From the NCBI RefSeq assembly GCF_011250555.1, contig NZ_JAANMZ010000023.1, positions 1 through 64,000 of the forward strand: a DNA stretch of 64,000 bases. Reading direction: 5' to 3'. Made by a program: the position numbers and the translations under genes. Below are positions 13,172 to 55,090 of this stretch, piece after piece; the first letter of the stretch is position 1; every line of letters starts with the position of its first letter. The notes beneath the pieces were generated by a model. The model searched no databases and had not been told where the DNA came from. It was given only the letters and a program-made list of their open reading frames with translations. The DNA comes from Bacillus sp. MM2020_4 (lineage in GTDB: Bacteria; Bacillota; Bacilli; Bacillales; Cytobacillaceae).

Positions 13172-14129
13172 CTAATATTTATCAATCATTCCTCTTTTAA
13201 CCCCTTCCTGGTTCATCGTAACAATTTGCCTTCTTGCCTTAATCATCTCGTCGGTTTTTCCATAATGAAAAAAGGTTACGACACCCTCTGGATGATTCTT
13301 ACTTCGCCCTGCCCTACCAGCAATTTGAACAAGGGCGCTTTCGGTAAAAATGGTATCTTCTGCTCCGATGACGGCAACATCGATATTCGGAAGGGTAACG
13401 CCACGCTCGAGGATAGTAGTTGTTAATAGAATAGGTATCTCTAAAGCCCGCATTTTTTGCACCTTCTGTTTTCGGTCGGGGTCCTCAGCATGAACCGCCT
13501 CAATGTTGGGCGAAATCTGTCGAAGAATAGGTAGGGTCCTTTCCATCATTTGAATATGCGGGAAAAAGAGTAAGACTTGTTTATTCTCCAAAATTCGACA
13601 CTGAATCCACTGGATAATGGTCGGCGGCAATTTGTTTTTTAGAAGCCGCTTTTGCCAGTTGCCGCACCAAACAAATTCGGGTACCGGTAGCGGGTGGCGA
13701 TGGAATCGGGCGGGGATGGTGGTAAAGGCTCTTTTGCCACCGCGGCATTCCTTTTGCCATCTTTCATTTGGTGTGGCGGTCAAATAAATCATCGCTGAGA
13801 TGGGTTTACGTGCCTGTTTTGCAGCATACTGGAGCGACTCCTCCACGGTGTACGGAAAAGCATCGACTTCGTCCAAAATGATGGTGTCGAAAGCTTGGTA
13901 AAACCGCAGCAGCTGATGTGTTGTCGCAATGGTGAGAGGTGCGTATAGATGGCGATCCTCGCTCCCACCGTAAAGGGAGGCAACTGTTGTATGGGGAAAT
14001 GCCGCCTTTAACCTTGGGGTGAGTTCAAGGACTACATCTGTCCTTGGTGTCGCAATGCAGACTCTTTTTTTTGCAGCTAAAGCTGCCTCGATTCCCGCGA
14101 AGAGAACCTCAGTTTTCCCAGCGCCGCAA
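13172..14129 (-). pseudogene. comFA: comFA 3' part, detached by prophage insertion
   Basis: The helicase part of ComFA, about 317 residues from just after the core Cys codon to the stop. It begins within the Walker A motif (GCGAGKTE), then has the DEVD Walker B (IILDEVDAFP), LTATP, and the C-terminal helicase motifs ending QIAGRAGR. The 5' 179 codons lie 40 kb away at 54,557-55,090. Joining the two at the shared TTGCG core gives a seamless 496-residue frame reading WAVCGAGKTE, as in B. subtilis ComFA. A GTG at 14134 could in theory start this fragment, but it has no ribosome site and the protein would lack the zinc domain and half the P-loop context. Confidence 0.95.
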
Positions 14130-14152
14130 CCCACAGGTTATGAATACATAAT
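14125..14152. other. prophage attachment site, comFA 3' side
   Basis: Core CGCAA (14125-14129) joins comFA to phage DNA. The phage arm CAGGTTATGAATACATAAT (14134-14152) is the inverted counterpart of the arm at the other end with one mismatch. Large serine integrases bind such long imperfect inverted repeats in attP. Confidence 0.85.
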
Positions 14153-14155
14153 TTT

Positions 14156-14287
14156 TTATTTCTTGTTTCTGCAATTGCTACATGATTTCCTAGTATGTTT
14201 CTTAGCTTTGAATGATTGTGGATTTCTAAATACTCCACATTTTTCACAAAGTCTATATTCCACCTTTTCGACTAATACCTTAAACAT
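14156..14287 (-). CDS. 43-residue zinc-ribbon protein
   Basis: Small basic protein with two CXXC pairs (LCEKCG and SCSNCR), so probably one zinc ribbon that binds DNA or protein. Its ribosome site AAGGAGGTGATATAG is formed by the last codons and stop of the replication-relaxation gene, and the ATG follows that stop directly: tight translational coupling. It is the last gene before the attachment site. Confidence 0.8.
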   Translation of the reverse strand: MFKVLVEKVEYRLCEKCGVFRNPQSFKAKKHTRKSCSNCRNKK

Positions 14288-14938
14288 CTATATCACCTCC
14301 TTAGAGATTATTTTCGTTTTGACTGGTCTCACTTCCACCTTCACTTCTTTTTCGGTTTTTAAGCTTTTCTCAAACTGAGTAAATGATTCGGCTTGAAATA
14401 TTTTAAATGGATATTTTCCATCGATAGCATATCGCTGATCAGACAGAATGAGTAAGTGCGGAAATGGAGCAGTCATTATTCCGCTATTGTATAATTCGAC
14501 ATATCTATCTAATTTTTCTTCAATTAGCTTATTTGAGTAAAGTGTTCGTTGTACCTCCACAAAGAAATTGGTCTTTCTGTATTGGCAGAATATATCCGGC
14601 TCTGCACATCCCTTTTTACCGTATTTCGGTTCAACTAAAAACGTTTCAAGGTTTCCTAGTTGCTTAAGCTCTTTATATACATTCAGAATGGCTAGAAAAT
14701 GATTTATCTTTGCGGAATCCTTTTTGATATTATTTTCAGCTGCAAAGTAAACATAAGGGACAAATTTTGTAGACCTTTGTACATATCCGTCACGTAGTAA
14801 TCTAAGTAACACGCTATTGGCAGCATAGGTAGGATTTTTTACATTAGAAAAATATAAATCGGCAATACTATCTCGATCCATCACACGGAATTTATGGAGG
14901 TCCTTTATGATGGACTTATCTCTATTGGTCAACGGCAT
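14288..14938 (-). CDS. replication-relaxation family protein
   Basis: A 216-residue protein with an N-terminal winged helix (LTNRDKSIIKDLHKFRVMDR) and a nuclease-like core with spaced acidic and lysine residues (EPKYGKKGCAEPDI, NFFVEVQRT). It matches the replication-relaxation family named after plasmid proteins such as those of staphylococcal and Bacillus elements, which often accompany FtsK-like ATPases. PD and EVQ residues resemble a PD-(D/E)xK nuclease core; catalytic activity is not proven. The start overlaps the FtsK-like gene, so the two are coupled. Its place in phage biology is unclear. Confidence 0.75.
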   Translation of the reverse strand: MPLTNRDKSIIKDLHKFRVMDRDSIADLYFSNVKNPTYAANSVLLRLLRDGYVQRSTKFVPYVYFAAENNIKKDSAKINHFLAILNVYKELKQLGNLETFLVEPKYGKKGCAEPDIFCQYRKTNFFVEVQRTLYSNKLIEEKLDRYVELYNSGIMTAPFPHLLILSDQRYAIDGKYPFKIFQAESFTQFEKSLKTEKEVKVEVRPVKTKIISKEVI

Positions 14939-16067
14939 CAGCGAACACGTCCTTTTCGGTTAATACAGGTTGCTTTGGTTTTTCCGGCTTAACTTCCTTT
15001 ACCGGCATCTTGGTTATGTTAAATGGATTCAAAAGTTTCTTAGCGTCCTCTAATTCCAAGTAAGGAGCCTGTAAATCATATAATTTATCGCTGTTCATAA
15101 TAAACCGTCCACTCACATCTATCTTTTCGGCATCGGGAGTATTAACAATTCTTGCTTCAATTTTATCCCTCAATTTAAAGCCCATTGAAACGGTCAAATT
15201 AGCCCTTATTGTTGTGTCTAATACTTGTGCATTCGGACGTTGCATGGATAGGATAGCAAAGACTCCTAGTGTCCTGCCGATGGCCACAATTTCAGTGAGT
15301 ATATCCATTACAGTTTCATCTTTCCTTAGCATCACAAATTCATCGATGCAGACAACAATATATGGCCGCTTATGTTCTTCTGGTAGATCATCCACATGAC
15401 TAACCTCAAACATTTCTGTAAGATCACTTCTTTCATCCAATTCCTTTTTGATGTGCCTAAGCATCCTGGCAATTTCTTTACCATTGGAAAGTACACATTG
15501 AACATGCTCAACTTTCCTAAAGATATGGAATTCAGACTTTTTGCAATCGCCTAGGTAAAGTTCCAATTCAGATGGCTTTTTATTGAGTATCATTGTGGTA
15601 AGGATGGAACGTAATTGTGTGGACTTACCTGAACCCGTTTCTCCAGCAATAAGAATGTGAGGCTGTTTTAATAAATCGAATGTGATATATTCACCGGTGC
15701 GTTCCCTTCCACAGATGACTCCAAGATTGTGGACGGTAACCAACTTGCTTATTTCTGTAGCATTATATTTCAACACTTTATCAGCACCCCTTTGATATAC
15801 ATTTAGGACATACTTTTTAAATTCACCTTCTAACTTGATTCGTTCTCCAAAGACTTGTAAAAAGGCATAATAATTTTTCTTGAGTAACGATGGATCTAAA
15901 CCGGTAGGAAGAGTAAAAACAAATTCTGTGGATGATTCACTTGTGCGTACTGAGTGGATTTTAGGAAAGATTTTTCTTTCATCGCTGCCAAATGTTTTAT
16001 ATATAGATCCGGCCCGGAAAGCTTTAATTAGATTCTTTCTTGCCATAAGTTCTTGCCAAAAAGTCAT
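14922..16067 (-). CDS. FtsK/SpoIIIE-like DNA translocase ATPase
   Basis: About 381 residues. Walker A GETGSGKST (near residue 150) and Walker B YIVVCIDEF define an FtsK/HerA-type motor, followed by the sensor-like block LSMQRPNAQVLDTTIRANL. It lacks the four membrane spans and gamma domain of chromosomal FtsK. Similar proteins are found in Bacillus anthracis Wbeta/Gamma-type phages and in integrative elements, where they move double-stranded DNA or act as coupling proteins. The start overlaps the small membrane gene upstream; the ATG at 16067 or in-frame GTG codons up to 16082 are possible. Confidence 0.85.
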   Translation of the reverse strand: MTFWQELMARKNLIKAFRAGSIYKTFGSDERKIFPKIHSVRTSESSTEFVFTLPTGLDPSLLKKNYYAFLQVFGERIKLEGEFKKYVLNVYQRGADKVLKYNATEISKLVTVHNLGVICGRERTGEYITFDLLKQPHILIAGETGSGKSTQLRSILTTMILNKKPSELELYLGDCKKSEFHIFRKVEHVQCVLSNGKEIARMLRHIKKELDERSDLTEMFEVSHVDDLPEEHKRPYIVVCIDEFVMLRKDETVMDILTEIVAIGRTLGVFAILSMQRPNAQVLDTTIRANLTVSMGFKLRDKIEARIVNTPDAEKIDVSGRFIMNSDKLYDLQAPYLELEDAKKLLNPFNITKMPVKEVKPEKPKQPVLTEKDVFADAVDQ

Positions 16068-16255
16068 CTTAACAACCACCACACAATTGGATTAGTCTCC
16101 AAAAAGTAAACACCTAAAGCCATTCCCGCTAAAGGTAAAGCAATCTTAATGGCAGTACCGAGCCAATGGACTCCAAACTCCTCAAATGTTTTATCAACAA
16201 CTGTACAAATAATTGTTGCACCAGCTGCTATAAATAATCCTGGTCCAAATAACAC
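16064..16255 (-). CDS. small protein with two membrane segments
   Basis: About 63 residues with two hydrophobic segments (LFIAAGATIICTVV and IALPLAGMALGVYFLE). An AAGGAGG ribosome site lies 8 bp ahead of a GTG at 16255, which is a better start than the ATG at 16273 that would place the ribosome site inside the gene. It overlaps and precedes the FtsK-like ATPase. It may anchor that ATPase at the membrane, or resemble the small pilin-like or hydrophobic proteins of conjugative elements. Not assigned to a family. Confidence 0.7.
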   Translation of the reverse strand: MLFGPGLFIAAGATIICTVVDKTFEEFGVHWLGTAIKIALPLAGMALGVYFLETNPIVWWLLR

Positions 16256-16273
16256 TTTAACTACCTCCTTCAT

Positions 16274-16590: not shown

Positions 16591-16788
16591 ATGAAAAGCC
16601 GTATCGGGGAAATGATCGAAGCAGCAGGATATAAGAAAAAGTACATTGCTAAAGTATTAGAAATATCGCCTACCCAGCTGTCAAACTGGATTAGTGGAAG
16701 ATCCTATCCAACAATTGAAAAGGCATTTAAATTGGCAACGCTTTTGAAGGTTAAAGTCGATGATCTATACGAGGAGGAAAAGGAATGA
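16591..16788 (+). CDS. XRE-family transcriptional regulator, 65 residues
   Basis: A single helix-turn-helix domain of the Cro/CI type: KYIAKVLEISPTQLSNWISG, then TIEKAFKLATLLKVKVDDLY. AGAGGTG ribosome site. It is the first gene of the rightward accessory cassette and faces away from the FtsK cassette, so it likely represses the shared intergenic region. It is separate from the main lysogeny repressor at 52.4 kb. Confidence 0.88.
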   Translation: MKSRIGEMIEAAGYKKKYIAKVLEISPTQLSNWISGRSYPTIEKAFKLATLLKVKVDDLYEEEKE

Positions 16789-17138
16789 AAAAGGCTTTAA
16801 AAATTATATTAGGGATGTTTGTTGCGTTTTTTATTATTGTAGCAATCATATTAGTAGTAGATATTTCAAACGATGTGGAATATAAGGTTATTGAAAAGAA
16901 AGAAAGCTCCGATTCAATTCGTTTAAAGGTAGAAACTGAGGCAACTAAAGAGGGTGATCTAAAAACTATCGTTGATGAAGTAAAGAAGGAAAGTAAGAAT
17001 GTTGATGCAGTTTGGCTGTGGATTTATAAACCAGGGAAGAATGGGGAATTATTAGCTAAAGCAAAAATCCCTTATAATAACAAAGGTCAAGTAATGGTCG
17101 GTGCGAATGATTTGAATTATATCTTTGAAAAAGAATAG
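16785..17138 (+). CDS. single-pass membrane or exported protein
   Basis: A 117-residue protein with an N-terminal hydrophobic helix (about residues 5-25) and a soluble alpha/beta tail (ISNDVEYKVIEKKESSDSIR). Overlaps the XRE gene by four bases (ATGA), so the two are coupled. No family recognised. Similar anchored small proteins appear as lysogenic-conversion genes in Bacillus prophages. Confidence 0.75.
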   Translation: MKKALKIILGMFVAFFIIVAIILVVDISNDVEYKVIEKKESSDSIRLKVETEATKEGDLKTIVDEVKKESKNVDAVWLWIYKPGKNGELLAKAKIPYNNKGQVMVGANDLNYIFEKE

Positions 17139-17149
17139 AGTGAAATTAA

Positions 17150-17404
17150 ATGACCGTCATCATCCATATCCACTACACATCAGTCGGTAGCAAATCATTT
17201 CAACGTGCCGAGATCCAGCTTCGTGGAAAATTAAAAGAACGTGCAGCCTATGAATTTTGGAAATGGATACAGAAGCAATTACCGTATGGCGGTGAGCTGG
17301 AACAGGTATTAGTCGAAAATGAAGACATAACCGAGGCTGTTTTAGCATTAGAAAAACAGGAACAATTGAAAGCCTTTTACGCAGCGGATAATTTACCATT
17401 TTAG
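17150..17404 (+). CDS. hypothetical protein, 84 residues
   Basis: Soluble alpha/beta protein (VIIHIHYTSVGSKSFQRAEI, then a Trp-containing helix). Third gene of the rightward cassette with an 11-bp gap from the previous gene. No function is evident. Confidence 0.65.
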   Translation: MTVIIHIHYTSVGSKSFQRAEIQLRGKLKERAAYEFWKWIQKQLPYGGELEQVLVENEDITEAVLALEKQEQLKAFYAADNLPF

Positions 17405-17407
17405 GTC

Positions 17408-17602
17408 GTGATAGCCATGTTATTTTTTAAAAAGCGTATTAAAGTAAGAGTATTTGACCGAGGTGATCACTTTATCGCGATGGCAAGCACAAAAGATCAA
17501 ACCGTTTGTAACTGTTACGGATCCACAAGAGAGGCTGCTAAAGAGATGGCCATCTTGAGATTAAAGCAAGCAATAGTCGACCATAAGACTCCTCAATCTT
17601 GA
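17408..17602 (+). CDS. hypothetical protein, about 61-64 residues
   Basis: Small basic protein (FFKKRIKVRVFDRGDHFIAM) ending with a helix, followed by an intrinsic terminator. It may start at the GTG at 17408 or the ATG at 17417. The beta-hairpin plus helix pattern is unassigned. Confidence 0.65.
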   Translation: MIAMLFFKKRIKVRVFDRGDHFIAMASTKDQTVCNCYGSTREAAKEMAILRLKQAIVDHKTPQS

Positions 17603-17615
17603 GGGGTTTTTATTT
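17588..17615 (+). terminator. terminator of first accessory operon
   Basis: ACTCCTCA and TGAGGGGT stem with a TTTTTATTTT tail, just inside and after the end of the preceding gene. Confidence 0.85.
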
Positions 17616-17651
17616 TGCGTAATTTGTCGAAAAGAAATTTATAAAAAGATG

Positions 17652-17704
17652 TTTACAATGCGGTAACGCATGATATAATAAGAGTAGGAAATGCGATAAC
17701 GCAT
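17652..17704 (+). promoter_or_regulatory. SigA-type promoter with twin palindromic operators
   Basis: TTTACA (17652-17657) and TATAAT (17674-17679) are spaced by 16 bp. ATGCGGTAACGCAT fills the spacer (17658-17671) and ATGCGATAACGCAT lies just after the -10 (17691-17704). A regulator bound to both would block the promoter. The regulator is unknown; candidates are the XRE protein at 16.6 kb or the HTH protein at 18.1 kb. Confidence 0.75.
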
Positions 17705-17723
17705 TAAAAAGGAGGAAGTAACG

Positions 17724-18125
17724 ATGAACGTCATGAAAAAAGCTTGGGAAATCGCAAGAGAAGGTCAAAAGAAATTTGGAGGAAAAGTAAAAGAATATTT
17801 TTCCCAGGCTTTGAAAATGGCGTGGAGCATCGTGAAAAATGCTATGGAAAAAGTAGAAATCGGTTATCAAGAAGTAGCTAAGAAAAACGGTGTAATGTAC
17901 TTTGTTGTAAATGACGTTGAAGGATTGGAAGTGTCGTTTTTAAGCACTGAAAAGAATCATTACAACGGCAAAATGATGACTAAAAAAGATGTAATCGAAA
18001 ATTTTAAGCGTGGCACAAACAATAAAACTGGGAAAGCCGCTCGTCTATATGACGTAGCGATCAACTCCGGCGACATAGAAATTACATTAGGTGATGTAGT
18101 TGAGGTTATTAAAAATGCTAGATAA
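17724..18125 (+). CDS. hypothetical prophage protein, 133 residues
   Basis: N-terminal amphipathic Lys/Trp helices (KKAWEIAREGQKKFGG, then FSQALKMAWSIVK) resemble short conserved segments seen in other Firmicutes phage proteins. The C-terminal part is alpha/beta. Strong AAAGGAGG ribosome site, and its promoter has twin operators, so expression is tightly controlled. Function unknown. Alternative start at the second Met four codons in. Confidence 0.7.
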   Translation: MNVMKKAWEIAREGQKKFGGKVKEYFSQALKMAWSIVKNAMEKVEIGYQEVAKKNGVMYFVVNDVEGLEVSFLSTEKNHYNGKMMTKKDVIENFKRGTNNKTGKAARLYDVAINSGDIEITLGDVVEVIKNAR

Positions 18126-18432
18126 CATCATTGGAGTGGAGGAGGCCGCTGAAATTCTTGGTCTCTCTCCTGGTACTGTAAAAAACATGTGTGCAGCTGG
18201 CAAATTAGAGAGTAAAAAAATCGGAAAAACGTGGGTCTTAGATAAAACTAATTTGGAGGTAAATAAAATGGCGAAAGTATTTTATGAAGATATCTTGGTT
18301 GGGGAAGTTATGACAAACCGTAGTTTATCAGTGGATGAAGCATTAGACTTAATCGGCTTTAACGAAGAAAAATTTATCACTGATAACAGGTTTGATGACA
18401 TCGATTATAACGATTTTAAGTTGGTGTACTAA
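18115..18432 (+). CDS. excisionase-like HTH protein with C-terminal extension
   Basis: About 105 residues. Residues 1-50 form an HTH_17/excisionase-type winged helix (IGVEEAAEILGLSPGTVKN, then GKLESKKIGKTWVLDKTNLE). The rest (KVFYEDILVGEVMTNRSLSV) looks like a separate small domain. I chose the ATG at 18115 with GAGG upstream rather than a TTG at 18100. The gene overlaps the previous one. It might regulate the accessory promoter or act as a recombination directionality factor; both are guesses. Confidence 0.75.
   Translation: MLDNIIGVEEAAEILGLSPGTVKNMCAAGKLESKKIGKTWVLDKTNLEVNKMAKVFYEDILVGEVMTNRSLSVDEALDLIGFNEEKFITDNRFDDIDYNDFKLVY
18268..18432 (+). CDS. possible internal start: 54-residue protein
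   Basis: A GGAGG sequence lies 8 bp before an in-frame ATG inside the HTH gene. The product, from MAKVFYEDILVGEVM to the shared stop, equals the C-terminal domain alone. The gene may therefore give two proteins, or two ancestral genes may have fused. Confidence 0.45.
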   Translation: MAKVFYEDILVGEVMTNRSLSVDEALDLIGFNEEKFITDNRFDDIDYNDFKLVY

Positions 18433-18807
18433 GTGCGTAAGCGACTAGACCTAACAGGCAGCCGCTATGGTTGCCTGGTGGTTTTAAAAGAAGAGGAGCA
18501 GATCGGCACAAAGCGTCGCTGGCTATGTCGGTGTAATTGTGGGAAAGAAACAGTTGTCCTTATGGATAGCTTACGCAGTGGAAACACTCAATCCTGTGGA
18601 TGCATAAAGCCGATAAACGTTTCAAAAGCAAATGTTATTAATTTAACAGGTCAGCGTTTTGGAAAGTTGACAGTATTAAGTAGGTCAAAAATCAAAGAAA
18701 ATAAACGGCATACTTTTTGGGAATGCAAATGTGATTGCGGGAATACCTCAATTGTGGACAGTTCCAATTTAAAAAGTGGTAATACTAAATCATGTGGGTG
18801 TATTTAA
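18433..18807 (+). CDS. phage zinc-finger protein with two tandem CxCxCG units
   Basis: A 124-residue protein from a GTG start. Two similar halves each read LTGxRxGxLxVL, then W-x-C-x-C-x-CG, then LxSGxTxSCGC. This unit is normally the N-terminal DNA-binding part of phage AP2/HNH-type endonucleases; here the nuclease part is absent, so it may be a remnant or a stand-alone DNA-binding protein. It starts immediately after the HTH gene stop. A terminator follows. Confidence 0.75.
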   Translation: MRKRLDLTGSRYGCLVVLKEEEQIGTKRRWLCRCNCGKETVVLMDSLRSGNTQSCGCIKPINVSKANVINLTGQRFGKLTVLSRSKIKENKRHTFWECKCDCGNTSIVDSSNLKSGNTKSCGCI

Positions 18808-18849: not shown

Positions 18850-19713
18850 TTAAAACATCATTGACCAGGTTGCAGGACCGACAATACCATCGGATACTAA
18901 CCCATGCCTACTTTGATAAGCCTTTACGGCTGCCTTTGTATTTGGCCCGAAGATACCATCAGGATTAACTCCGACTGCCCGCTGGATCCGTTCCACGTCC
19001 TTTCCTCGACTACCATTCTTAATCAGGTGACCTGGATACGGTACGATGTCTTTAGGTTTAGCAGGCTTTGCTGTCACTACAGGTTTAGGCGCAACAGGCT
19101 TTGGAGCAAGCGGTGTATTTGTACCTGTAAACCATTCCAACGGTTTACCGCCATTAAGGATATTTAAGTCTAAATTACCATTGTATCCGTTTAATATCCC
19201 TGTGCTAGTATATTGCCAAATGTCACATGGATAATCTGGTTTTGTTTGTGGCTTACCATCGTTACAACCATACCGTGGAATCCAAACCGCATCCACTTCA
19301 GCAAAATTTAGATTAAAAGATTTATATAAATGGTGAGCAATATAGATACCAATCTTTTGGACTCCAAAACTACGAAGTTTTTTAACGTAAGCCGAAACAC
19401 CGGCACGCATATCAGCCATGGATTGTTCCTCGACATCGAGCCACCATACAGTAGGGTTTAAATCCTTTGTGCGGTTATAAAAATCTGTTGCTTCCACAGC
19501 CATATCGGATAGGCTGACACCTCTCACCCAAGCATATGCATTTGTGGACACCCCGCGTTTGCGGAGCTCATTATGATGTGTTTTATAATGATAGTCAATT
19601 TTCTGCGAACCATATTGAGTACGAATTATTGCGAGTTCTACTTCCTTTGCAAGTTGATCATAATTAATTTTTGTAGGATCTTGATGATGTGATAAATCAA
19701 TAATTTTACTCAT
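18850..19713 (-). CDS. endolysin: GH25 lysozyme with PG-binding domain
   Basis: A 287-residue phage lysin that cleaves the glycan of peptidoglycan at the end of the lytic cycle. The N-terminal GH25-like domain has IIDLSHHQ, WWLDVEEQ and the closing DIWQYTSTG. A Pro/Lys/Ala linker (about residues 205-225) leads to a C-terminal PG_binding_1 domain (GKDVERIQRAVGVNPDGIFG). It has no signal peptide, so it needs the adjacent holin for release. The start overlaps the holin stop by one base. Confidence 0.95.
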   Translation of the reverse strand: MSKIIDLSHHQDPTKINYDQLAKEVELAIIRTQYGSQKIDYHYKTHHNELRKRGVSTNAYAWVRGVSLSDMAVEATDFYNRTKDLNPTVWWLDVEEQSMADMRAGVSAYVKKLRSFGVQKIGIYIAHHLYKSFNLNFAEVDAVWIPRYGCNDGKPQTKPDYPCDIWQYTSTGILNGYNGNLDLNILNGGKPLEWFTGTNTPLAPKPVAPKPVVTAKPAKPKDIVPYPGHLIKNGSRGKDVERIQRAVGVNPDGIFGPNTKAAVKAYQSRHGLVSDGIVGPATWSMMF

Positions 19714-20120
19714 TATTTACCCTCTCCTTTTTCTTTTAATAGAGTAATAAAGTTTTTTACCGGGCCAAGAGGCACACCTAATTTACCTGCATTCTCCGTT
19801 AAACTAATAAATTCAATAACTATATAAGCAATGGTTACACCATCACCAAGATGTTGAGTACCAAGGATCCCTTTTTCCAATAAATAAATTAAGCCCACAA
19901 TGATTAGAATGTGGACCTTTTTCACAAATCCTATCCGTCCTTTTGCGCTGCTTACTCCACCATTGACAGCACCTGCAGATACTCCCGACACAAAATCAGC
20001 AGCCATCATAATTATAAGTGTGGGAAATGCCCATCCCATTGCTCCCACAATAAAAGACCAAATAGTACCGATTGCTCCAAAAAAACTTTTAATAAATATG
20101 ATAAGCTTATTTCCATCCAT
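19713..20120 (-). CDS. phage holin, phi29/TcdE-type family
   Basis: A 135-residue inner-membrane protein with several hydrophobic segments (ALPTLIIMMAAD-like region, VHILIIVGLIYLLEKG, VTIAYIVIEFISL) and the conserved DFVSGVSAGAVNGGVSS, then TENAGKLG-P motifs of the holin 4_1 family. It forms the membrane hole that frees the endolysin encoded just downstream. It has an AGGA(GG) ribosome site. Confidence 0.93.
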   Translation of the reverse strand: MDGNKLIIFIKSFFGAIGTIWSFIVGAMGWAFPTLIIMMAADFVSGVSAGAVNGGVSSAKGRIGFVKKVHILIIVGLIYLLEKGILGTQHLGDGVTIAYIVIEFISLTENAGKLGVPLGPVKNFITLLKEKGEGK

Positions 20121-22501: not shown

Positions 22502-23212
22502 ATGTCATTAAGAGAATCCATTTTACTTTTGAAACAAGCAAAACAATTTTTAGACCAGATTGAATCTTCTTATCCTGTCTATTTAACTCAAAGGGAAGCT
22601 TCTGAAGAATTGCAAATTCAGATCAAAGATTTTCTGGATAAGGTCAATCCTGCGTTAGATTTTGCTGCATACCATATCTTCAATACTTATTGCATTCCTC
22701 ATGTAAAAGGTGATCTAGGTAGAGCAGAAGCAAAGGTGTACTTTCCTTTAAGAGATACAAATAAAGCATTTGATCACTATATAAAGAACATCTACCCTGG
22801 TTTATTAGAGCAACGACCTGATATAGTAGATGTTTTAAGAAAGTATCAACCTTTTCCAACACGTCCTAAATGGTTATTTCATCTAAGAGAACTAGCAAAG
22901 CATAATAAACATAGAAACTTAACTAAACAATCATTCAGACAGTCAACACATATTGATAATCTCACATTTCCAGGTGGTGGTGGAATTAGAGGTATTACTA
23001 TTGTAAATAGTAATGATGTCAGTGCGGTCAGTTACTACGGACAATCTATAGATTTCCAAAATCCAAACAACATCCCTGATTATTTTAATTACAGTGGTTC
23101 TGTTGATTATGATTTTGTCTTTATAGATATTAATCAACCTGTTTTAAATACTTTAAAAAGAATTTACAGAAGTGCTCCAACTGTAATATATGATCTAGAA
23201 AAAATTCTTTAG
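22502..23212 (+). CDS. moron protein with HEPN-like Rx4H motif
   Basis: A 236-residue soluble protein on the strand opposite to the tail genes. The N-terminal half is helical (SLRESILLLKQAKQFLDQIE) and contains a helix with RELAKHNKHR, which fits the Rx4-6H motif of HEPN ribonucleases; the second half is beta-rich with a GGGG turn. AAAGGAGG ribosome site 12 bp upstream, TATAAT at 22466-22471, and its own intrinsic terminator. It is AT-rich relative to the tail genes by eye. This independent transcription unit inside a late operon is a classic moron. A defence or superinfection role is inference. Confidence 0.75.
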   Translation: MSLRESILLLKQAKQFLDQIESSYPVYLTQREASEELQIQIKDFLDKVNPALDFAAYHIFNTYCIPHVKGDLGRAEAKVYFPLRDTNKAFDHYIKNIYPGLLEQRPDIVDVLRKYQPFPTRPKWLFHLRELAKHNKHRNLTKQSFRQSTHIDNLTFPGGGGIRGITIVNSNDVSAVSYYGQSIDFQNPNNIPDYFNYSGSVDYDFVFIDINQPVLNTLKRIYRSAPTVIYDLEKIL

Positions 23213-24937: not shown

Positions 24938-25729
24938 TTATACATATTGGTAAGTTAAACTCTCGCTGATTATTAAATCTAAATTGCTGCCTTCCACAGT
25001 GATTGTGTTTACACCTGGAAATAATTCAAGAAACACTCCATTTGTGGAAGTTAAATTAGTGACCCCATTTACTTTCACTGTATAATTTTCAGTGATTTCA
25101 TATGTTTTATTGGTAAATGAACTAAAAGTCATAGTCTTTCCATTAGTTGAAAATGCAATGTTATCCCCACTTCCTTCCATCCGAAAAGAAAACGGAATTA
25201 CAATCGTCCCGTTATTAATGATTTCAAATGATTGTGGACTAAATATTTTCCTATTGCTAAAACCTGTATCCCACAATAAATCACTCATGACAGGAATGTC
25301 TGAATCCATTATTATTTCATCTGAAGGAACAATAAAATTTTTACGTGGTTTGCTCGCAATCAAAGGCAAATCGAAAAAAGCAAAACCATGTATCCTTCGC
25401 GGAGTAAAACCATTAGCAATTTTCACCCGATAATATTTATCCGGTTCATAGTCGAATGATAGTTTCATTTCCCTTGGCTTTCCATAATGATCAAACAAAA
25501 AAGCAACGAATTCATTTAACCTTCGCTGCTTTTCGTACATGTCATATTCGATAAACCCAAGTGGAAAGTTAAAAGGTTTAGGACCCGATTCGGAACCAAA
25601 ATCCCATTCTCCATCCATCCCAGGAATAGTCATTGTCTTCCTTCTTAAATCAGGCACCGCAGGATGATCATGCTCTTGTTGTATTTGTAAACCCCATTTA
25701 CTGATTGGAAAACCATCAAGTAATATCAC
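24938..25729 (-). CDS. distal tail protein (Dit-like, Sipho_tail family)
   Basis: A 263-residue protein with the Dit N-terminal motif (ILLDGFPISKWGL, MTIPGMDGEWDFGSESGPK) and a C-terminal galectin-like beta domain. It forms the hexameric hub linking the tail tube to the tip. The start overlaps the tape measure gene by four bases. Confidence 0.92.
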   Translation of the reverse strand: MILLDGFPISKWGLQIQQEHDHPAVPDLRRKTMTIPGMDGEWDFGSESGPKPFNFPLGFIEYDMYEKQRRLNEFVAFLFDHYGKPREMKLSFDYEPDKYYRVKIANGFTPRRIHGFAFFDLPLIASKPRKNFIVPSDEIIMDSDIPVMSDLLWDTGFSNRKIFSPQSFEIINNGTIVIPFSFRMEGSGDNIAFSTNGKTMTFSSFTNKTYEITENYTVKVNGVTNLTSTNGVFLELFPGVNTITVEGSNLDLIISESLTYQYV

Positions 25730-27903
25730 AGCATGACCACTCCTTTCCCGCGGGCATTTGATTTGGTTAGATTATATAGTTCCCTTGCAATCTTTTGAAT
25801 GTCGGCTTCTTCCCGTACGATCATTTGCTGTACAACTACACCGCTATTACCACCCATATGTTCACTGATCATACCGGCAATTTTGCCTAAAACTGAATCA
25901 GATAATGGTATAGCTGCCTCTGGCACATTGGCATCCCCCATACCTACTAATCTAGGACTGTTTGCTGGGAACACACCACCATTTTTATACCAGTCTACCG
26001 CTAATTTAGGTACACTCGGAGGAGATAAACTAAATTTACCGCTTAATCCGAAATGAGGTAGTTTAATATGGGGTAATTTCAATGATAACCCTCTGAAAAA
26101 ACCTTTTATTTTTTCAATCTGATCACCCACAAATGAAACAGCTTCCTTAATTGCGCTCTTAATTCCCTCTTTTATATCTTGAAACTTTTCTTTTACAGAT
26201 TGTCCAAGTTCGCCGGCCTTAGTTTTAATAGTATCCCAGTTTTTATAAAGAAGGACACCTATTGCAATGAGTGCCGCTATTGCAGCAATTATTCCAAGGA
26301 TAATAAGCGTCAAAGGAAGCATTCCAATGTTTAACGCAATCGATGCAACCGATAACATACCCATTACTCCCGCTAAAGCCATACCTACCCCAACTAATAT
26401 ACCTATAACAGTTACTATTGCTGTTATAGTAGCCGTAAGAGTAGGATTTTCCGCCGCCCATTCTGCGACCTTTGCTACCATATTTGCTATATCAGTAAGT
26501 AAAGGAGTAAGGGAAGTTTGCATATTAGATAAAGCTGTTTGCAATTGCACCGCTGGATCCGAGTCTAATGCTTTAACCGATTCGTTTAATAAATCCTGAT
26601 TGGCTTTTAAATCCCCTGTATTTTTTTCTGCATTCAATATGGTATCTGTTATTTTCGTGCCATTTTCTTCCCATAGTGTCCCGAAAATCTGAACACCAAG
26701 GGCATTTCTCGTAGTTTCGTCTTTAATATTTAATAAGGCAGACGCTACCTCTTGCATAGCCTTTTTACCGCCTTCACCACCACTTGCAACAGCTTTACCC
26801 CACTCCATAAACTGTGAAGCAGATAGATCAGTACCTTCAATTATGTCAGATATTGCCTCCGGTACTAAAAATCCAAACTCAGCCACTTTAATTCGACCTT
26901 CTTTTAAACCATCTAAAAGTACGTCAATGTTCCAAGTACCTGTTTCGACCCCTGCAGCAAAAATCCCTTGGATTTCTTGAGCATTATAGCCAGCCCTTGA
27001 AAGTTGTGAACCGTATTCGGTGATTATATCCAATTGGTCAGGCGGAAATCCCATTTTCAAAAGTGCGTTAGTCATTCCAAGTGCTTCTTCTTGAGACATT
27101 CCCAAGTTAGAAGCCATTTCATTTGATTCTTGAATTAATTCATTAAAATCAATTTCCCCATAGGCGGCGGAAATTGCGCCTGCACTTTTAATAATGGCAG
27201 CATTCGACTCATCTGAGGCATTTTTATTTAATGCCCATTGTTTGCGCACTCCTTCAAGTGCTCCTTCAGCCTCAACACCATAAACTTCCACACTCGAAAG
27301 TGCATTTTTAACAGCCTGCACTGACTCATCGGGAACTTGAAAAGAAATATCAATTTTTGTGTTTAAAGAAGAACTATCTAATGCCTTTTCAATTACTTCT
27401 TTAATGCCTAACCCAGCTGCTAAACCACCAGCAAGCCCTGCTAACTCTCCACCTAATTCTTTTACAGACCCTTGAGCTTCCTCGGAATCGTCACCAAGTT
27501 GTTGCATATCTTGTCTTACTTCAGTAACGGAACTGTCATTACCAACCTGTGACAATCGTCTTCTTAGACCGTTCAATTGCCCTTCTGTTGCTACAATTTC
27601 ACGCTGGAATGCCCTGTATTGGTCAGCACCAATATCACCGCGCTGGAATTGTTCCTCAACTTGACTTTGCGCCGCTCTTAATCGATCCAGCTTTTCAGTG
27701 GAATTAGCTACTTGTTCAGCTAATATTTGCTGTTGTTGAGCAATAAGTTCGGTATTACCAGGATCAAACTTCAGCAGCCGTTCCACGCTTTTTAATTCTG
27801 ACTGTAAATCCTTGCTTTTCTTGTTTACATCTCTTAGGGCATTTTGTAAGCCGACCGTATCGCCGCCTATTTCTACCGTAATCCCTTTAATATTCCCTGC
27901 CAT
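25726..27903 (-). CDS. tail tape measure protein
   Basis: A 725-residue protein that sets tail length and is ejected with DNA. Residues 1-140 are a long coiled coil (LRDVNKKSKDLQSELKSVER), the middle is helical, and about residues 470-560 contain hydrophobic segments (TATITAIVTVIGILVGVGMA). It follows the gpG/gpGT chaperone gene pair, the standard order. The ATG has an AGTGAGGTGAG ribosome site located inside the stop region of gpT. Using about 0.15 nm per residue, the tail would be about 110 nm. Confidence 0.94.
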   Translation of the reverse strand: MAGNIKGITVEIGGDTVGLQNALRDVNKKSKDLQSELKSVERLLKFDPGNTELIAQQQQILAEQVANSTEKLDRLRAAQSQVEEQFQRGDIGADQYRAFQREIVATEGQLNGLRRRLSQVGNDSSVTEVRQDMQQLGDDSEEAQGSVKELGGELAGLAGGLAAGLGIKEVIEKALDSSSLNTKIDISFQVPDESVQAVKNALSSVEVYGVEAEGALEGVRKQWALNKNASDESNAAIIKSAGAISAAYGEIDFNELIQESNEMASNLGMSQEEALGMTNALLKMGFPPDQLDIITEYGSQLSRAGYNAQEIQGIFAAGVETGTWNIDVLLDGLKEGRIKVAEFGFLVPEAISDIIEGTDLSASQFMEWGKAVASGGEGGKKAMQEVASALLNIKDETTRNALGVQIFGTLWEENGTKITDTILNAEKNTGDLKANQDLLNESVKALDSDPAVQLQTALSNMQTSLTPLLTDIANMVAKVAEWAAENPTLTATITAIVTVIGILVGVGMALAGVMGMLSVASIALNIGMLPLTLIILGIIAAIAALIAIGVLLYKNWDTIKTKAGELGQSVKEKFQDIKEGIKSAIKEAVSFVGDQIEKIKGFFRGLSLKLPHIKLPHFGLSGKFSLSPPSVPKLAVDWYKNGGVFPANSPRLVGMGDANVPEAAIPLSDSVLGKIAGMISEHMGGNSGVVVQQMIVREEADIQKIARELYNLTKSNARGKGVVML

Positions 27904-43577: not shown

Positions 43578-43855
43578 GTGTTACTGAAATCACTGTTTTT
43601 TACCCTAAAAATATCTAAAATTACGCTTATTTTTCATTTAGTAACACAGCGCAAACCTTACAGCCCCAATGGATTAAGGCAATTGGTGTTACTTGTGTTA
43701 CCTCAATCCACCATAAAGGCTCCTAATAAGTACTTATATTTATTTTTATTTTTTTGTTTTTATAGGATATTGGTAACAAAAATAACAAAAATATCATAAA
43801 AGGTAACTTAAACCCTTGGTACGACTAACTTTTAAGAAAATTTAAATGTGTTACT
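43578..43855. repeat. iteron-like GTGTTACT cluster, candidate phage origin
   Basis: Exact GTGTTACT or its complement at 43578-43585, 43640-43647, 43686-43693 and 43848-43855. Near copies GTGTTACC at 43695-43702, GGTAACAA at 43772-43779 and AGGTAACT at 43801-43808. The region is non-coding for most of its length, AT-rich at 43730-43800, and lies beside the primase-helicase gene. This resembles an origin with initiator-binding repeats. Confidence 0.6.
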
Positions 43856-46222
43856 TTTTGAAGAATCGCTCGAATTATGGCTGTTATTCGGTAATATTTC
43901 GCCTTTTTCAGTATCATTTGATAGCTGAAAAGTAACATTTGCTCTTTCTTTCAAAGTAATGCCGTAAATCCAGAACTTGTTGTAATTTCCTCGATCACGT
44001 TTATATCCTTTTGTTTCTAAAGCTCTGTAAAAGGCTCTATTTTTTAATGCAAATTCACCGTTTTTAAAGCACCAATTGGAGTAAACTTCGTAAAGTTCTT
44101 TCGCTTCAATCTTTTGGGTACCGTTTATGAAACAACACTCGTATAAAAATGGCCCTAATATATCCATTTCCTCTTTATAGTCACCAGTCGCTTTCATAAC
44201 AGTTGCTGGATCATTAAGCCCCGACTGCTGCCACTTCAAACAACCTTCAAGCGCCCAATTAAGAATGCCTGGCATTTCAAGAGATAATTTTTCTGGCAAT
44301 TTTTTATCACGTTTTTCTTTTGGTAGCTGCAGATTGAAGGGAATCAATCGAATACGCCTCCAGATACCTTCATCTACACCTTTGATTACTGGTTTATGAT
44401 TCGTTGTAAAAAACACTTTAAATTCAGGAATAAACTCGAAATATTCTTGGCGAAGGAAACGAGCCAACACCGGCTCCCCTCCTGTTATCTGCTTAACGAA
44501 AGCTTCAGATAGCTGCTCCCCATCTTCACTTTCAATAGCTGAAACAAACCGGGCACCTACTAATCTAGCAATATCGTTATTTGCACCAGTCTCTTTTTTC
44601 TTAATGAAAGTATCTGATTTTGCTTGTTTACCGTATTCGCCCATTAAATCTTTGATAGTGTTAATAAATGTCGATTTACCATTGGAACCACCACCTATTA
44701 AAAAGACCATTATTTGCTCTGTAATTTCTCCGGTGAGTGAATAACCAATTAAACGCTGCATGTATTCGACAAGTTCTTTATCCCCTTGAAATATTTGATC
44801 CAAGAAACTTAACCATTCGGGGCATTTCGCTTTATCGTCGAATGTAATATTTGTGATTTTTGTTAATCCTAGTTCCCTGTCATGCGGTTGCAACTTACCT
44901 GTTTTCAAATCAATGATTCCATTTTCGACATTGAATAAATATTTATGCCGGTCAAAGTCTTCACGCTCTCCTGGAACCAATGGCATAAGATCCTTAATGC
45001 TATTCATCCGGATATTTCTCCTTTCGCACATTCTGGCCCACTTGGTTTCAGCTTCATCCTCTGATTTATAAAGGCTCCGGAGGACTTTAGCAGTGATACG
45101 TTCTATTTCCTTCTTGGTGTCCAATTTCCACCGTTTGCCGTCCCATATTAACCAGCCCATGTCCGATACATATTTGATTACATGGCCATATTCGTATGCG
45201 ATCCGTTCAGCATTACCAAGTTCGGTTAAACGGAATTTCTTTTTCGGTTTTTGTTCTTCCACAACTTCTGCAGCATCACTATTGTGGAAGTCAAAGGAGA
45301 ATTCAGCGAATTGCTCCTTATTGTCCAATATCGTTGTAGAAGTAGAAGAAATGGCCGTTGCTATTGTTCTTTCGCCGTATGTCTCATTCGTATCTCTGAA
45401 ATGGATAACGTCCCATTTATCGCGCATAAGGCCTGATTCCCGGAACATGGTATCTATTCGAGTTGCTGAATTACCTGTCCAAAATGCAAGATGGTTACAT
45501 AATGCTAGATCACTTGCTGAATGGTCACCATTGATTAAGGTGCCGTTGAATAATGACCGAATTTCATCACCATTTTTAGAGCGAAATATTCTATCCCATA
45601 AAGCATCATTTGAAATTTTAATTTCATCTTTTTCAAATTCAGCAAGGTTGATCCGGCCTTGGATATCGCTATCATCGAAATATTGTTCAAATACTTCTGC
45701 CAGTTCATCCGTCCGATCATAAATTTCATTTGAATTTTCTCGATTACCAGTGAAGGTAAAATAGCGACCGTAGGAATATATTTCTAAACCGTGCTTTGTA
45801 TTTTTTCGACCAGTCCCTATAACTCCTTGTGGAAGACCACCTTTGATGATGATGTGGACCCCTTTGCCGGATGGAGAAAATTCAGTGTAACTATCAAGCG
45901 TGTCAATAATTTCAGTTGAAAAGGTATTTGTCTTTCCTTCTGTTACACACTTATCAATATCAATCCCGATGTAATTGTCTTGCCGGCTGAATACAAATCC
46001 GATGCCGTCATAATCGCCTTGGAGATAAAACTTAACAGCCGTTGCAAAGGTGCTCCAGGTGCGGCGGTTATTAGCCTGTGCCATTTCTCCATTTGCTTGA
46101 TAGGGTACCTTAGTTGGCTTGCCATTGCGCTTCTCACTTTTCCACAAAATCCATTGCGGCAGGGCTTTTAATTCAGCAGGAATATCGTTAAAATTGTATG
46201 GATCTTCTTTCGTGCTGCCCAT
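43832..46222 (-). CDS. phage primase-helicase, D5/P4 family
   Basis: About 796 residues. The N-terminal 200 residues resemble primase-polymerase domains (NYIGIDIDKCVTEG, FSPSGKGVHIIIKGG). The C-terminal SF3 helicase has Walker A GGGSNGKSTFINT, Walker B VSAIESEDGE and sensor FFTTNHKP. It opens and primes the phage origin, and the iteron-like cluster overlaps its 3' end. ATG at 46222 with GGAG is preferred over 46237. Confidence 0.94.
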   Translation of the reverse strand: MGSTKEDPYNFNDIPAELKALPQWILWKSEKRNGKPTKVPYQANGEMAQANNRRTWSTFATAVKFYLQGDYDGIGFVFSRQDNYIGIDIDKCVTEGKTNTFSTEIIDTLDSYTEFSPSGKGVHIIIKGGLPQGVIGTGRKNTKHGLEIYSYGRYFTFTGNRENSNEIYDRTDELAEVFEQYFDDSDIQGRINLAEFEKDEIKISNDALWDRIFRSKNGDEIRSLFNGTLINGDHSASDLALCNHLAFWTGNSATRIDTMFRESGLMRDKWDVIHFRDTNETYGERTIATAISSTSTTILDNKEQFAEFSFDFHNSDAAEVVEEQKPKKKFRLTELGNAERIAYEYGHVIKYVSDMGWLIWDGKRWKLDTKKEIERITAKVLRSLYKSEDEAETKWARMCERRNIRMNSIKDLMPLVPGEREDFDRHKYLFNVENGIIDLKTGKLQPHDRELGLTKITNITFDDKAKCPEWLSFLDQIFQGDKELVEYMQRLIGYSLTGEITEQIMVFLIGGGSNGKSTFINTIKDLMGEYGKQAKSDTFIKKKETGANNDIARLVGARFVSAIESEDGEQLSEAFVKQITGGEPVLARFLRQEYFEFIPEFKVFFTTNHKPVIKGVDEGIWRRIRLIPFNLQLPKEKRDKKLPEKLSLEMPGILNWALEGCLKWQQSGLNDPATVMKATGDYKEEMDILGPFLYECCFINGTQKIEAKELYEVYSNWCFKNGEFALKNRAFYRALETKGYKRDRGNYNKFWIYGITLKERANVTFQLSNDTEKGEILPNNSHNSSDSSKSNTFKFS

Positions 46223-46223
46223 C

Positions 46224-46445
46224 CTACTTATCTCCATCCTTATAAATCAATCCTTGACGAAACATATGAGCGTGACTATCGTGGATATTTTTAGTAATAA
46301 AACGATATTTAGCCCAATCATGACCAATTTTTTCTTTAATTTTGCGAATCGCTTTTGATTTCGTTGGTTCTTGAATACCGAATACAAATTGTTTACTAAC
46401 ACTACTCCAAATGCCGATCATGCCTGTTTTCGGACTTTTTGCCAT
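46224..46445 (-). CDS. hypothetical protein, 73 residues
   Basis: Basic protein (WSSVSKQFVFGIQEPTKSKA, IGHDWAKYRFITKNIHDSHA). Ends just before the primase start. Separated from the SSB-like gene by a terminator. Possibly a replication accessory factor; unassigned. Confidence 0.7.
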   Translation of the reverse strand: MAKSPKTGMIGIWSSVSKQFVFGIQEPTKSKAIRKIKEKIGHDWAKYRFITKNIHDSHAHMFRQGLIYKDGDK

Positions 46446-52226: not shown

Positions 52227-52264
52227 ATATGTAATCACCTCCTTGTTAACTTCGGCTTGAATCT

Positions 52265-52397: not shown

Positions 52398-52441
52398 CTA
52401 AGTAACTTATAAATAAGAAACGATACGTGGAGGGGACCAAA

Positions 52442-53101
52442 TTGTTAGATCGTGATTTACCACTAAAAAAGAAAATTTCCGAGAATATAAAAACTTATAT
52501 GAAAATAAATAATTGGAGTCAAATAAAAACAAGTGAGATTTCAGGAATCTCTAAAAGCACTCTTTCTGATTACATAAATTGTAAAACTTTAATACATCCA
52601 GGAAATGTTGAAAAATTAGCAAAAGCATTTGGAGTTGAGAAATCTGATATTGATCCAAGTTTTGGATCATCAAAAGATATAGTAAACGAAGACCAAGGTG
52701 AATATTCAGCTCCTAATTCTATGAAAAAACTCCCAGTGGTTGGAAAAATTTCATGTGGTGCCGGATCAATTGCGTTTGAAGAAATTGAAGGATACGAACC
52801 TACACCAAGAGAATGGTTAAATGGCGGCGAATATTTTTATCTTAAAGCTAAGGGAGATAGTATGGTCAATGCTCGAATTGTGGAAGGTGATTTGTTATTA
52901 ATTAGAAAACAATATGACGTAGAAAACGGCGAGATTGCTGCAGTGTCAATCGATGATGAAGCTGTCCTTAAAAGAGTATTCAAAACTGGTGATAATGTGA
53001 TTCTTCAAAGTGAAAACCCTAATTATGCTCCAATTGTACTCGACCCTAAAAAGAATATCCGCATCATTGGAAAATTAAAACGAGTAGTTTTAACTTTTTA
53101 A
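52442..53101 (+). CDS. LexA-like CI repressor with S24 peptidase domain
   Basis: About 219 residues. The N-terminal HTH (SQIKTSEISGISKSTLSDYI) binds the operators; the C-terminal LexA/S24 domain has the Ser nucleophile in KAKGDSMV and the Lys in EAVLKRV, with ISCGAGS as the likely self-cleavage region. RecA filaments would trigger cleavage, so the prophage should respond to DNA damage. TTG at 52442 after GGAGGGG is a good start; GTG at 52427 is the alternative. Confidence 0.93.
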   Translation: MLDRDLPLKKKISENIKTYMKINNWSQIKTSEISGISKSTLSDYINCKTLIHPGNVEKLAKAFGVEKSDIDPSFGSSKDIVNEDQGEYSAPNSMKKLPVVGKISCGAGSIAFEEIEGYEPTPREWLNGGEYFYLKAKGDSMVNARIVEGDLLLIRKQYDVENGEIAAVSIDDEAVLKRVFKTGDNVILQSENPNYAPIVLDPKKNIRIIGKLKRVVLTF

Positions 53102-53159
53102 ATACATAGAGGTAGGTGTGATAACTAACTTTTTTATTAAATAGGAGGTAATTTTGTAT

Positions 53160-54521
53160 ATGAGGGCCGCATTATATATTAGAGTTAGTACTCAAGAACA
53201 AGTTGAAAATTACAGTATAGAATCACAAAAAGAGCGCTTGGAGGCATATTGTAAATCAAAAGGTTGGGCAGTTTATGATGTTTACATTGATCCAGGCTAT
53301 AGCGGCTCAAATACTGACCGCCCAGCTCTGCAACGGTTGCTAGCTGATTTAAATAATATTGATGTAGTGGTTGTTTATAAATTAGACCGTCTCTCTCGTT
53401 CGCAAAGAGATACGCTTGATTTAATCGAGGAATATTTTCTAAAAAACAGTGTAGAATTTGTATCTATCACAGAAACTCTCGATACATCCACACCATTTGG
53501 GAAAGCAATGATAGGCATATTATCGGTATTTGCCCAATTAGAACGTGAGACGATAGCTGAGCGCATGAGAATGGGGTTAATCAAACGAGCTGAAGAAGGA
53601 TATAGAAGTGCTGGGGGGAATTATGATCCAGCTGGTTATGGAAGAGGAGAAAATGGAGAACTGTTTATTAAAGAAGAGGAGGCATTGCATATTAAAACAA
53701 CCTATGACCTTTATGAACAATACCATTCGATTACTAAGGTTCAGGAAATATTAAAGGAACTAGAGTTTCCAGTATGGCGATTTAGGCGCTATAACGACAT
53801 ATTAAGAGCGAAATTATATTGTGGGTATGTAAGCTTTGCAGGAACTTATTATAAAGGCCTTCATGATCCGATTGTTACAGAAGAACAATTTAACCGTGTA
53901 CAAGTGCTTTTATCAAGACATAAAGGACATAATGCTCATAAAGCTAAAGAAGCATTGTTATCAGGATTAATTATTTGTGGGCACTGTGGAGAAAATTTTG
54001 TTTCATATCTTTATTATGACAAGCTAAAAAGTGGAGAGAAGAAAAAATACCGTTATTATTTATGCAGGGCAAAAAGATTTCCTTCTGAGTACACTGAAAA
54101 ATGTACAAATAAAAATTGGAATGGAAATAAGCTAGAAAAACTAATTATTGATGAAATCCAAAATTCGATAATCGATAAGAAAACCGAGAAAAGTAAAACA
54201 AAAAAAATTAACTATGACAAATTGATTAAGAAAGTTGATGAAAAAATGGAGCGCACCTTAGCTTTATATGTGGAGGGCAACATGCCAGTTGCATTACTCA
54301 ATAAACAGATCGATGCGCTGGAACAAGAAAAAAAACAACTACAGAATAAAAAGGAAATACAAGAAAAACAATTAGAAATCCAACTCACAGATAAAGAATT
54401 GAAACAGTATACGATTGATCTGCAATCTGCGGATTTCCCCACCAGGCAGGCCGTCATTCAAAAGTTAATAAAACAAATTATCATCCACAATGAAGATGTA
54501 GAAATCGTGTGGAATTTTTAA
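53160..54521 (+). CDS. int: large serine recombinase (integrase)
   Basis: About 453 residues. The catalytic domain has Ser in YIRVSTQEQ, then DRLSRS and the E-helix FAQLERETIAERM. A recombinase domain is followed by a zinc ribbon (CGHCG ... CRAKRF ... CTNK) and a C-terminal coiled coil with a long Lys/Gln-rich helix. This is the A118/phiC31-type integrase, which recombines attP and attB without host factors. It ends 10 bp inside the phage attachment arm, and the interrupted comFA fragment ends in the opposite direction over the same bases. A TTG at 53154 is an alternative start. Confidence 0.97.
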   Translation: MRAALYIRVSTQEQVENYSIESQKERLEAYCKSKGWAVYDVYIDPGYSGSNTDRPALQRLLADLNNIDVVVVYKLDRLSRSQRDTLDLIEEYFLKNSVEFVSITETLDTSTPFGKAMIGILSVFAQLERETIAERMRMGLIKRAEEGYRSAGGNYDPAGYGRGENGELFIKEEEALHIKTTYDLYEQYHSITKVQEILKELEFPVWRFRRYNDILRAKLYCGYVSFAGTYYKGLHDPIVTEEQFNRVQVLLSRHKGHNAHKAKEALLSGLIICGHCGENFVSYLYYDKLKSGEKKKYRYYLCRAKRFPSEYTEKCTNKNWNGNKLEKLIIDEIQNSIIDKKTEKSKTKKINYDKLIKKVDEKMERTLALYVEGNMPVALLNKQIDALEQEKKQLQNKKEIQEKQLEIQLTDKELKQYTIDLQSADFPTRQAVIQKLIKQIIIHNEDVEIVWNF

Positions 54522-55090
54522 TACAAAAAAATTATGTATTCATATCCTGCCACGCAAACAGCCCAGATAAGGTGCTCCTGATTCGCATGGATGGCCTCCA
54601 CCACATGATTTGACGCTACCCTTTGCCCCTCCGAGAGTATCCCTTTCCATTCCAATACCTTCATAGGGGAAAGGGTGTCAGGCACCGGGCCCTTCCAGCC
54701 CATCAGCGGAGTGCATTCACTGATTCTGCCCATCATGAGGCAATGCCGGCAATAGAGGCAGGTTTCGCCACATCGTGAGCATGGAAAGGCGGCAAACCAC
54801 CTTGGGTCCTTGTTGCCACACCGTCCGCAAATAGGTTGTTTTCCATTGTAGACGATTCCTTTACGGTATGTAACATATCCATTTTGATAATGTGTTTGGA
54901 CTTCCTCATGGGTGAATGGAATATCTTCAAGGAGGAGCTGTTTTCCGGAAAGAATCTGCTGAAGGTTAGGGTTGTAGGCAAACTTTGGATTGAGCGGCGG
55001 CTGTGGGATGGTTGGGATTTTCGAGATGGGCAGAGAGTCTTCGACAGTATTGCTTTTTATTAAGAGTTCATCCTTTATGATAAACCGCAT
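54518..55090 (-). pseudogene. comFA: comFA 5' part, truncated by prophage
   Basis: Residues 1-179 of ComFA: N-terminal region, four-cysteine zinc domain (CGRCG, CSRCGETC-L-YCRHC) and the start of the helicase domain up to HLIWAVC. Then 11 phage-encoded residues (VAGYEYIIFLY) precede a stop. The truncated 190-residue product has no P-loop. I chose ATG 55090 because of GAAGGTG upstream; an ATG at 55111 has none. No clear ComK box pair was found upstream, where the gene overlaps a NERD gene. Confidence 0.95.
54531..54557. other. prophage attachment site, comFA 5' side
   Basis: Phage arm ATTATGTATTCATATCCTG (54531-54549) and core CGCAA (54553-54557), after which comFA sequence resumes. Pairs with 14125-14152. 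Confidence 0.85.

Follow-up and report, generated by a model that had tools for sequence, protein, structure and literature searches.

A serine-integrase prophage within the Walker A region of comFA in Bacillus sp. MM2020_4, in a genome whose comGA is also split

The interrupted comFA locus

The window analysed here is a stretch of 64,000 nucleotides from Bacillus sp. MM2020_4 (positions 1 to 64,000 of contig NZ_JAANMZ010000023.1, assembly GCF_011250555.1) in which the competence gene comFA, located on the minus strand, is found in two halves on either side of a prophage. The split falls in the Cys codon immediately preceding the Walker A motif (WAV-C-GAGKTE), and its components are as follows.

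54555 to 55111, minus strand: comFA 5' part, ending in WAV plus the opening bases of the Cys codon; ATG start at 55111 or 55090
54531 to 54557, minus strand: integrase-side junction with palindrome arm (54531-54544), spacer, TTGCG core (54553-54557) and crossover TG (54555-54556)
14129 to 54555: prophage between the two crossover TG, about 40.43 kb
14125 to 14152, minus strand: far-side junction with TTGCG core (14125-14129), crossover TG (14127-14128), spacer and palindrome arm (14139-14152)
13172 to 14128, minus strand: comFA 3' part, from CGAGKTE to the stop, with Pfam helicase domains
14065 to 14072, minus strand: run of 8 A in comFA (7 A in the sibling genome G141)
12436 to 13185, minus strand: comFC-like gene downstream of comFA, with a phosphoribosyltransferase domain

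Both comFA halves are open frames. The 5' part reads into WAVC and continues for 11 codons of phage DNA until it meets a stop at 54518, and the Walker A motif is kept on the 3' part, apart from the 5' part. An earlier, sequence-only reading of this DNA had proposed that the prophage splits comFA at the Walker A codons and that joining the halves at a shared TTGCG gives a single frame of 496 codons. The two TTGCG copies are indeed located at 54557-54553 and 14129-14125, and the codon count, an arithmetic sum over two unjoined halves, is reproduced from ATG 55090 (186 + 318 - 1 - 7 = 496); the frame has 503 codons if counted from ATG 55111. We discarded the core as evidence by itself, because six 5-mers, including TTGCG, are common to the compared ends (80 nt versus 100 nt) and a 5-bp match alone thus means nothing. 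The split itself is borne out by an empty site in a sibling genome, by the palindromic ends of the prophage and by the recurrence of the same junction in relatives.

In G141, an assembly of the same species with no integrase match at E <= 1e-60, the two comFA flanks meet exactly at TTGCG. Sibling strains with unrelated sequence at this position had been named as a finding that would count against the proposal; what G141 carries is the uninterrupted site. We regard the anatomy of the comFA insertion as secure, close to certainty. The view that the prophage is a defective remnant or an artefact of assembly draws on the draft state of the assembly (150 contigs), but both junctions are contained in a single contig, none of the module genes examined is interrupted, other genomes show the same junction, and near the site the host flanks agree with the sibling chromosome; we give this explanation hardly any weight.

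The comFA gene of G141 has 7 A where the window has 8 A, 56 nt past the crossover, and is shifted in frame as a result, which may reflect either a pseudogene or a homopolymer error. The ratio of non-synonymous to synonymous substitution rates (dN/dS) between the window and G141 is 0.25 for the comFA 5' part and 0.11 for the 3' part after the A-run, and most of the comFA divergence between the two therefore arose under constraint. An open comFA frame of at least 497 aa is present in 34 of 36 same-genus genomes (the window's included, G141 not), and the two exceptions, the window's genome and G121, both have comFA split by a prophage. A tract of raised identity at the site was considered as a sign of recent exchange and rejected, identity there being 97-98% per 150 nt, like most of the flanks. 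Two patches (13195-13795 and 55003-55303) are about 78-89% identical to G141 in flanks mostly above 93%, with lower patches elsewhere too, hinting at past recombination in comFA.

On the 5' side, comFA is directly preceded by a NERD-domain gene (55075-56085), in a region where G141 is without about 800 bp (window 55270-56087), and has degV/degU/degS-like genes as further neighbours. On the 3' side lie the comFC-like gene and two genes that, judged by their protein starts, are hpf- and secA-like. The proposal that comFC is cut from its promoter holds as far as the distance is concerned, comFC being about 40 kb away from the comFA start; the remainder of that proposal follows from position only, and a scan for a replacement comFC promoter was uninformative (5 promoter-like sites versus a mean of 9.0 in shuffles).

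Attachment site and integrase lineage

The prophage ends are inverted repeats around TG that together make up a palindrome of about 50 bp with arms like ATTATGTATTCATA. The repeat holds at 25 of 35 positions, a value reached in none of 20,000 shuffles of one end. The minimal phage attachment site (attP) of the Listeria phage A118 is a 50-bp imperfect palindrome in which exchange takes place at the two central bases, whose identity is required (PMC3556126). The arrangement deduced for the window, a palindromic attP of about 50 bp with predicted exchange at a common central dinucleotide, is of this kind, and G141 provides the natural bacterial site (attB). Three viral contigs (L032, whose integrase is 80% identical to that of the window, L029 and L040) carry an unsplit attP of the same shape adjoining a related integrase; relatives therefore exist in a non-integrated arrangement. 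An FtsK-like gene lies beyond the attP of L032, which is where joining the two ends of the window's prophage would place it.

The integrase is rare: at E <= 1e-60 there are six carriers among 193 family genomes, and at E <= 1e-140 five among 397 genomes sampled from the order, the window's genome being in both counts. The search of genomes for the same junction, suggested earlier as a check, found comFA split at the same codon in four of the five other family carriers; the fifth, G189, is a 66% complete genome that yielded no comFA. Among the best 80 of 150 confirmed integrase loci on genome contigs, 10 encode integrases of at least 60% identity, of which nine are in comFA and the tenth (L115) is at a contig edge, and the other 70 have no comFA match (E 0.01) within the fetched flank of at most 2.5 kb. 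Most of the viral-contig loci (97 confirmed, 80 kept) are Listeria-like, with 46-47% identity. Hosts of the comFA-integrated relatives belong to Neobacillus, Bacillus, Cytobacillus, Alkalihalobacillus, Paucisalibacillus and Oceanobacillus. The 24 attachment ends collected comprise 20 integrated, three unsplit and one at a contig edge, and all 20 integrated ends stop at WAV (17 are distinct, three pairs being identical in sequence).

We built a tree of 98 integrases by a quick method without bootstrap, from the window's integrase, those of the best 80 genome loci that exceed 330 residues in the form read, 15 of the 80 viral-contig loci, four others from the order search and A118, with comK rows typed by A118 and by eye from their flanks. 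The 20 comFA-typed integrases fall in one clade of 28 rows (SH-aLRT 96), the other eight of which are without a typing host flank. Its sister is a group of five comK rows (support 100; joint support 99). Matches to the 53 open reading frames (ORFs) of the window's prophage number 8 in G121, 9 in G017, 15 in G064, 13 in G051 and 5 in L032, over its stretch of 7.35 kb. The integrase is the sole ORF matched in all five, and one more (38716-39075) is common to the four prophages G121, G017, G064 and G051, from which ten tested ORFs gave terminase, portal, major head, tape measure or phage polymerase signatures. As judged from these comparisons, what is shared by otherwise different phages is the integrase and the comFA site.

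The motif W-A-V-C-G-[A/S]-G-K-T-E is encoded in all 32 comFA regions compared, with TG starting the Cys codon (11 regions from the same genus, 20 from other families, for which 20 of 24 listed places were fetched, and G141). TG is likewise found at 19 of the 20 integrated ends. The remaining one, L026, has AC after WAV, inside comFA. In L029, its nearest row in the tree (support 92), the attP is symmetric around a central AC. When the N-terminal part of the L026 comFA was used as query against 299 class genomes, three genomes matched, all encoding WAVTGAGKTE with a Thr codon that begins with AC. The crossover dinucleotide thus seems to follow the host codon, TG for Cys and AC for Thr, the AC side of this rule coming from two phages of which one (L029) was not seen integrated. 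We found no report of a codon-matched crossover in the open-access literature, in which no search was aimed at the crossover rule itself. Upstream of the phage in L026 (4304-5333), host comFA reads in two frames, owing to a frameshift or sequencing error.

The nearly invariant codons are also what would be expected if the Walker A stretch were used by the phage only as near-invariant DNA in a dispensable gene, competence being lost without benefit. The encoded residues, the same apart from A/S in 32 of 32 comFA regions, and the rarity of the integrase are in line with such a neutral target, whereas the targeting of comK by the sister clade and of comGA by an integrase of a different lineage, together with the repeated targeting of competence genes in published surveys, speak against it. 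On balance we find this explanation rather unlikely, if worth keeping in view.

Prophage genes and a second prophage in comGA

The gene set of the prophage looks complete. As had been noted from the letters alone, integrase, repressor and structural genes are open, and this extends to the S24-type repressor, terminase subunits, portal, protease, head and tail, tape measure, holin and endolysin genes.

53154 to 54521, plus strand: large serine integrase with Resolvase, Recombinase and zinc ribbon domains
52427 to 53101, plus strand: CI-like repressor with S24 peptidase and helix-turn-helix (HTH) domains
43832 to 46237, minus strand: phage DNA primase
33590 to 35302, minus strand: terminase large subunit
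32433 to 33569, minus strand: portal protein
31735 to 32433, minus strand: head maturation protease
30547 to 31707, minus strand: major head protein
28470 to 29042, minus strand: major tail protein
25726 to 27903, minus strand: tape measure protein
18850 to 20120, minus strand: lysis genes, endolysin and holin
14922 to 16082, minus strand: FtsK/SpoIIIE-like gene close to the far end

Further genes encode SSB, a Sak4-like annealing protein, a Gam-like protein, the other terminase subunit, a neck protein and a minor structural protein. Two plus-strand features stand out: a group of small genes at 16785-18807 inside a minus-strand stretch, including those for an HTH_17/excisionase-like protein (18100-18432), a Gp111-like and an HNH-like protein, and a lone gene of 236 aa at 22502-23212 among the tail genes, without Pfam or PHROG match. 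A DNA-methyltransferase-like gene (37303-37746) is 72% identical to one of phage A118, with which little besides the integrase is otherwise common.

In the window's genome, a T2SSE search located comGA as two fragments on contig C74 (110538-111239 and 150744-151097). In G141, comGA is an open frame of 362 aa, to which the C74 flanks are 97.2% identical over 1640 nt and 99.0% over 5028 nt, with an 11-nt overlap at GHLVL/STMH; the stretch CATCTGGTACT is present at both junctions. The insert (C74 about 111227-150756, about 39.5 kb; loci L244, L245, L246 and L002) has portal, endolysin and virion protein matches, two of ten tested proteins being without a family, and encodes a 484-aa serine integrase that is 37% identical to residues 3-305 of the window's integrase. 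This comGA integrase occurs in nine family genomes, the window's included (E <= 1e-120), and adjoins a comGA half at the same site in eight of them, the ninth being at a contig edge. Given that it borders the 3' half in two and the 5' half in six, insertion has occurred in both orientations. We rejected the idea that comFA and comGA are hit together beyond chance, as six and nine carriers among 193 genomes give an expected overlap of 0.28 and one genome was observed; an overlap this close to chance favours the neutral target. Two comK-like genes and comEC are open in the window's genome. The ComK-family genes are open frames at C35:24047-24490 and C46:70296-70733, and G141 also has two. In G121, the comEC match (C76:153870-154658) lies in an open frame of 509 aa, versus 810 aa in the window's genome and G141, and this comEC may be broken. 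We found no report in the open-access literature of comFA and comGA being split by two prophages in one genome.

The second insertion leaves the earlier suggestion that excision would restore competence unsupported in this strain, because with comGA also split, a working competence system should not return if only the comFA phage is excised. It bears likewise on active lysogeny, in which cue-driven excision would restore comFA without lysis, a competence switch as reported for the Listeria comK phages. The sister relationship of the integrase clade to the comK integrases, the open state of both comFA halves, the relatives with unsplit attP and the low dN/dS to the sibling are all compatible with such a switch, but a recent insertion also explains the low dN/dS, lytic growth would equally give rise to an unsplit attP, and neither a gp44-like factor nor any sign of regulated excision was found. 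We consider active lysogeny at this locus improbable. In the assembly, the window's prophage is present only in integrated form, and no excision was seen.

Relation to known systems and interpretation

The insertion of a phage with an A118-like integrase into comFA is already in print and not new: Croucher et al. 2016 report it for B. cereus VD214 and B. thuringiensis sv. tolworthi (PMC4774983), a precedent that the sequence-only reading did not know of. Their integrase is likewise A118-like, about 44% identical to that of a Listeria comK phage (46% here), and the VD214 insertion is stated to be in the comFA 5' half; these hosts are of another genus, and the two published sites are described there as orthologous yet nonidentical (PMC4774983). 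As in that report, the coding sequence of a competence gene is interrupted here by elements with a dedicated integrase clade. The comFA prophages of streptococci (S. suis, S. equi) also split the gene but represent a separate, unrelated insertion, with an integrase 34.1% identical to that of B. cereus and a site much further downstream (PMC4774983). Prophages in comGA have been described in Staphylococcus pseudintermedius (SpST71A, PMC7029219; phiAI14-Pro1, PMC8297860), where the gene is split at 509 of 988 bp, versus after residue 234 of 354 translated here, and negative lysogenic conversion of comG is mentioned for macrococci (PMC6008420).

The earlier comparison with Listeria comK was apt, in that the window's integrase is 46% identical to that of A118 and belongs to a sister clade, with the same resolvase, recombinase and zinc-ribbon domains, an attP palindrome of about 50 bp and a competence gene as the split target. 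The A118 prophages differ in having comK as target and GG as crossover, in place of comFA and TG; of 27 A118 proteins tested against the window, only the integrase, the methyltransferase and, weakly (E 0.002), the repressor matched. Excision-based regulation is reported only for the Listeria case, the excision of the comK phage in phagosomes being cited in PMC7029219.

Our favoured explanation, which we hold to be probable by a modest degree, is that a temperate phage integrated into comFA by means of its large serine integrase and that the insertion switches transformation off. The insertion joins the palindromic attP with its central TG to the comFA stretch encoding WAVCGAGKTE, whose Cys codon supplies the matching TG, and the site would be favoured because constraint on the protein leaves its DNA almost unchanged from host to host. 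With the comFA 5' part separated from the Walker A motif, the lysogen is very likely not transformable. Excision would need a phage directionality factor and would probably follow inactivation of the CI-like repressor. By stopping transformation, the insertion probably protects the prophage from being lost through recombination, in keeping with the published hypothesis that mobile elements shut off competence so as not to be removed by transformation (PMC4774983). Competent cells form RecA-ssDNA filaments, to which C1-type pneumococcal prophages are sensitive (PMC12637031), and by analogy a block to DNA uptake may benefit a phage whose repressor is of the S24 type.

Several observations weigh against this explanation. 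No convincing homolog of the gp44-type directionality factor of A118 was found in the prophage (best tblastn E 0.68), although such factors are diverse and one of another type may be present. None of the 1179 matched records of the 'phages' collection has an integrase of at least 60% identity, the best matches being Listeria phages at 46-47%. In the G141 assembly, which lacks the phage, comFA is frameshifted nonetheless. Finally, a conserved motif is in itself a good target across many hosts; that the target is kept because it stops competence stands at roughly even odds with a neutral target.

A wider proposal, which we advance tentatively and hold to be possible but somewhat less likely than its negation, is that the integrase lineage is specialised on the comFA Walker A codon across Bacilli, its dinucleotide changing with the host residue, and that together with the comGA lineage it forms a double lock; if true, transformation would be opened only by excision of both phages. 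The present findings add further genera of the Bacillaceae to the hosts of phages known to cut competence genes, fix the attachment site to the level of the base and yield a testable rule, namely that the two crossover bases are those with which the codon before GAGKTE begins. The presence of cuts in both comFA and comGA in one genome is a warning against judging competence by a single split gene, and fits, without proving it, the idea that phages gain from stopped transformation.

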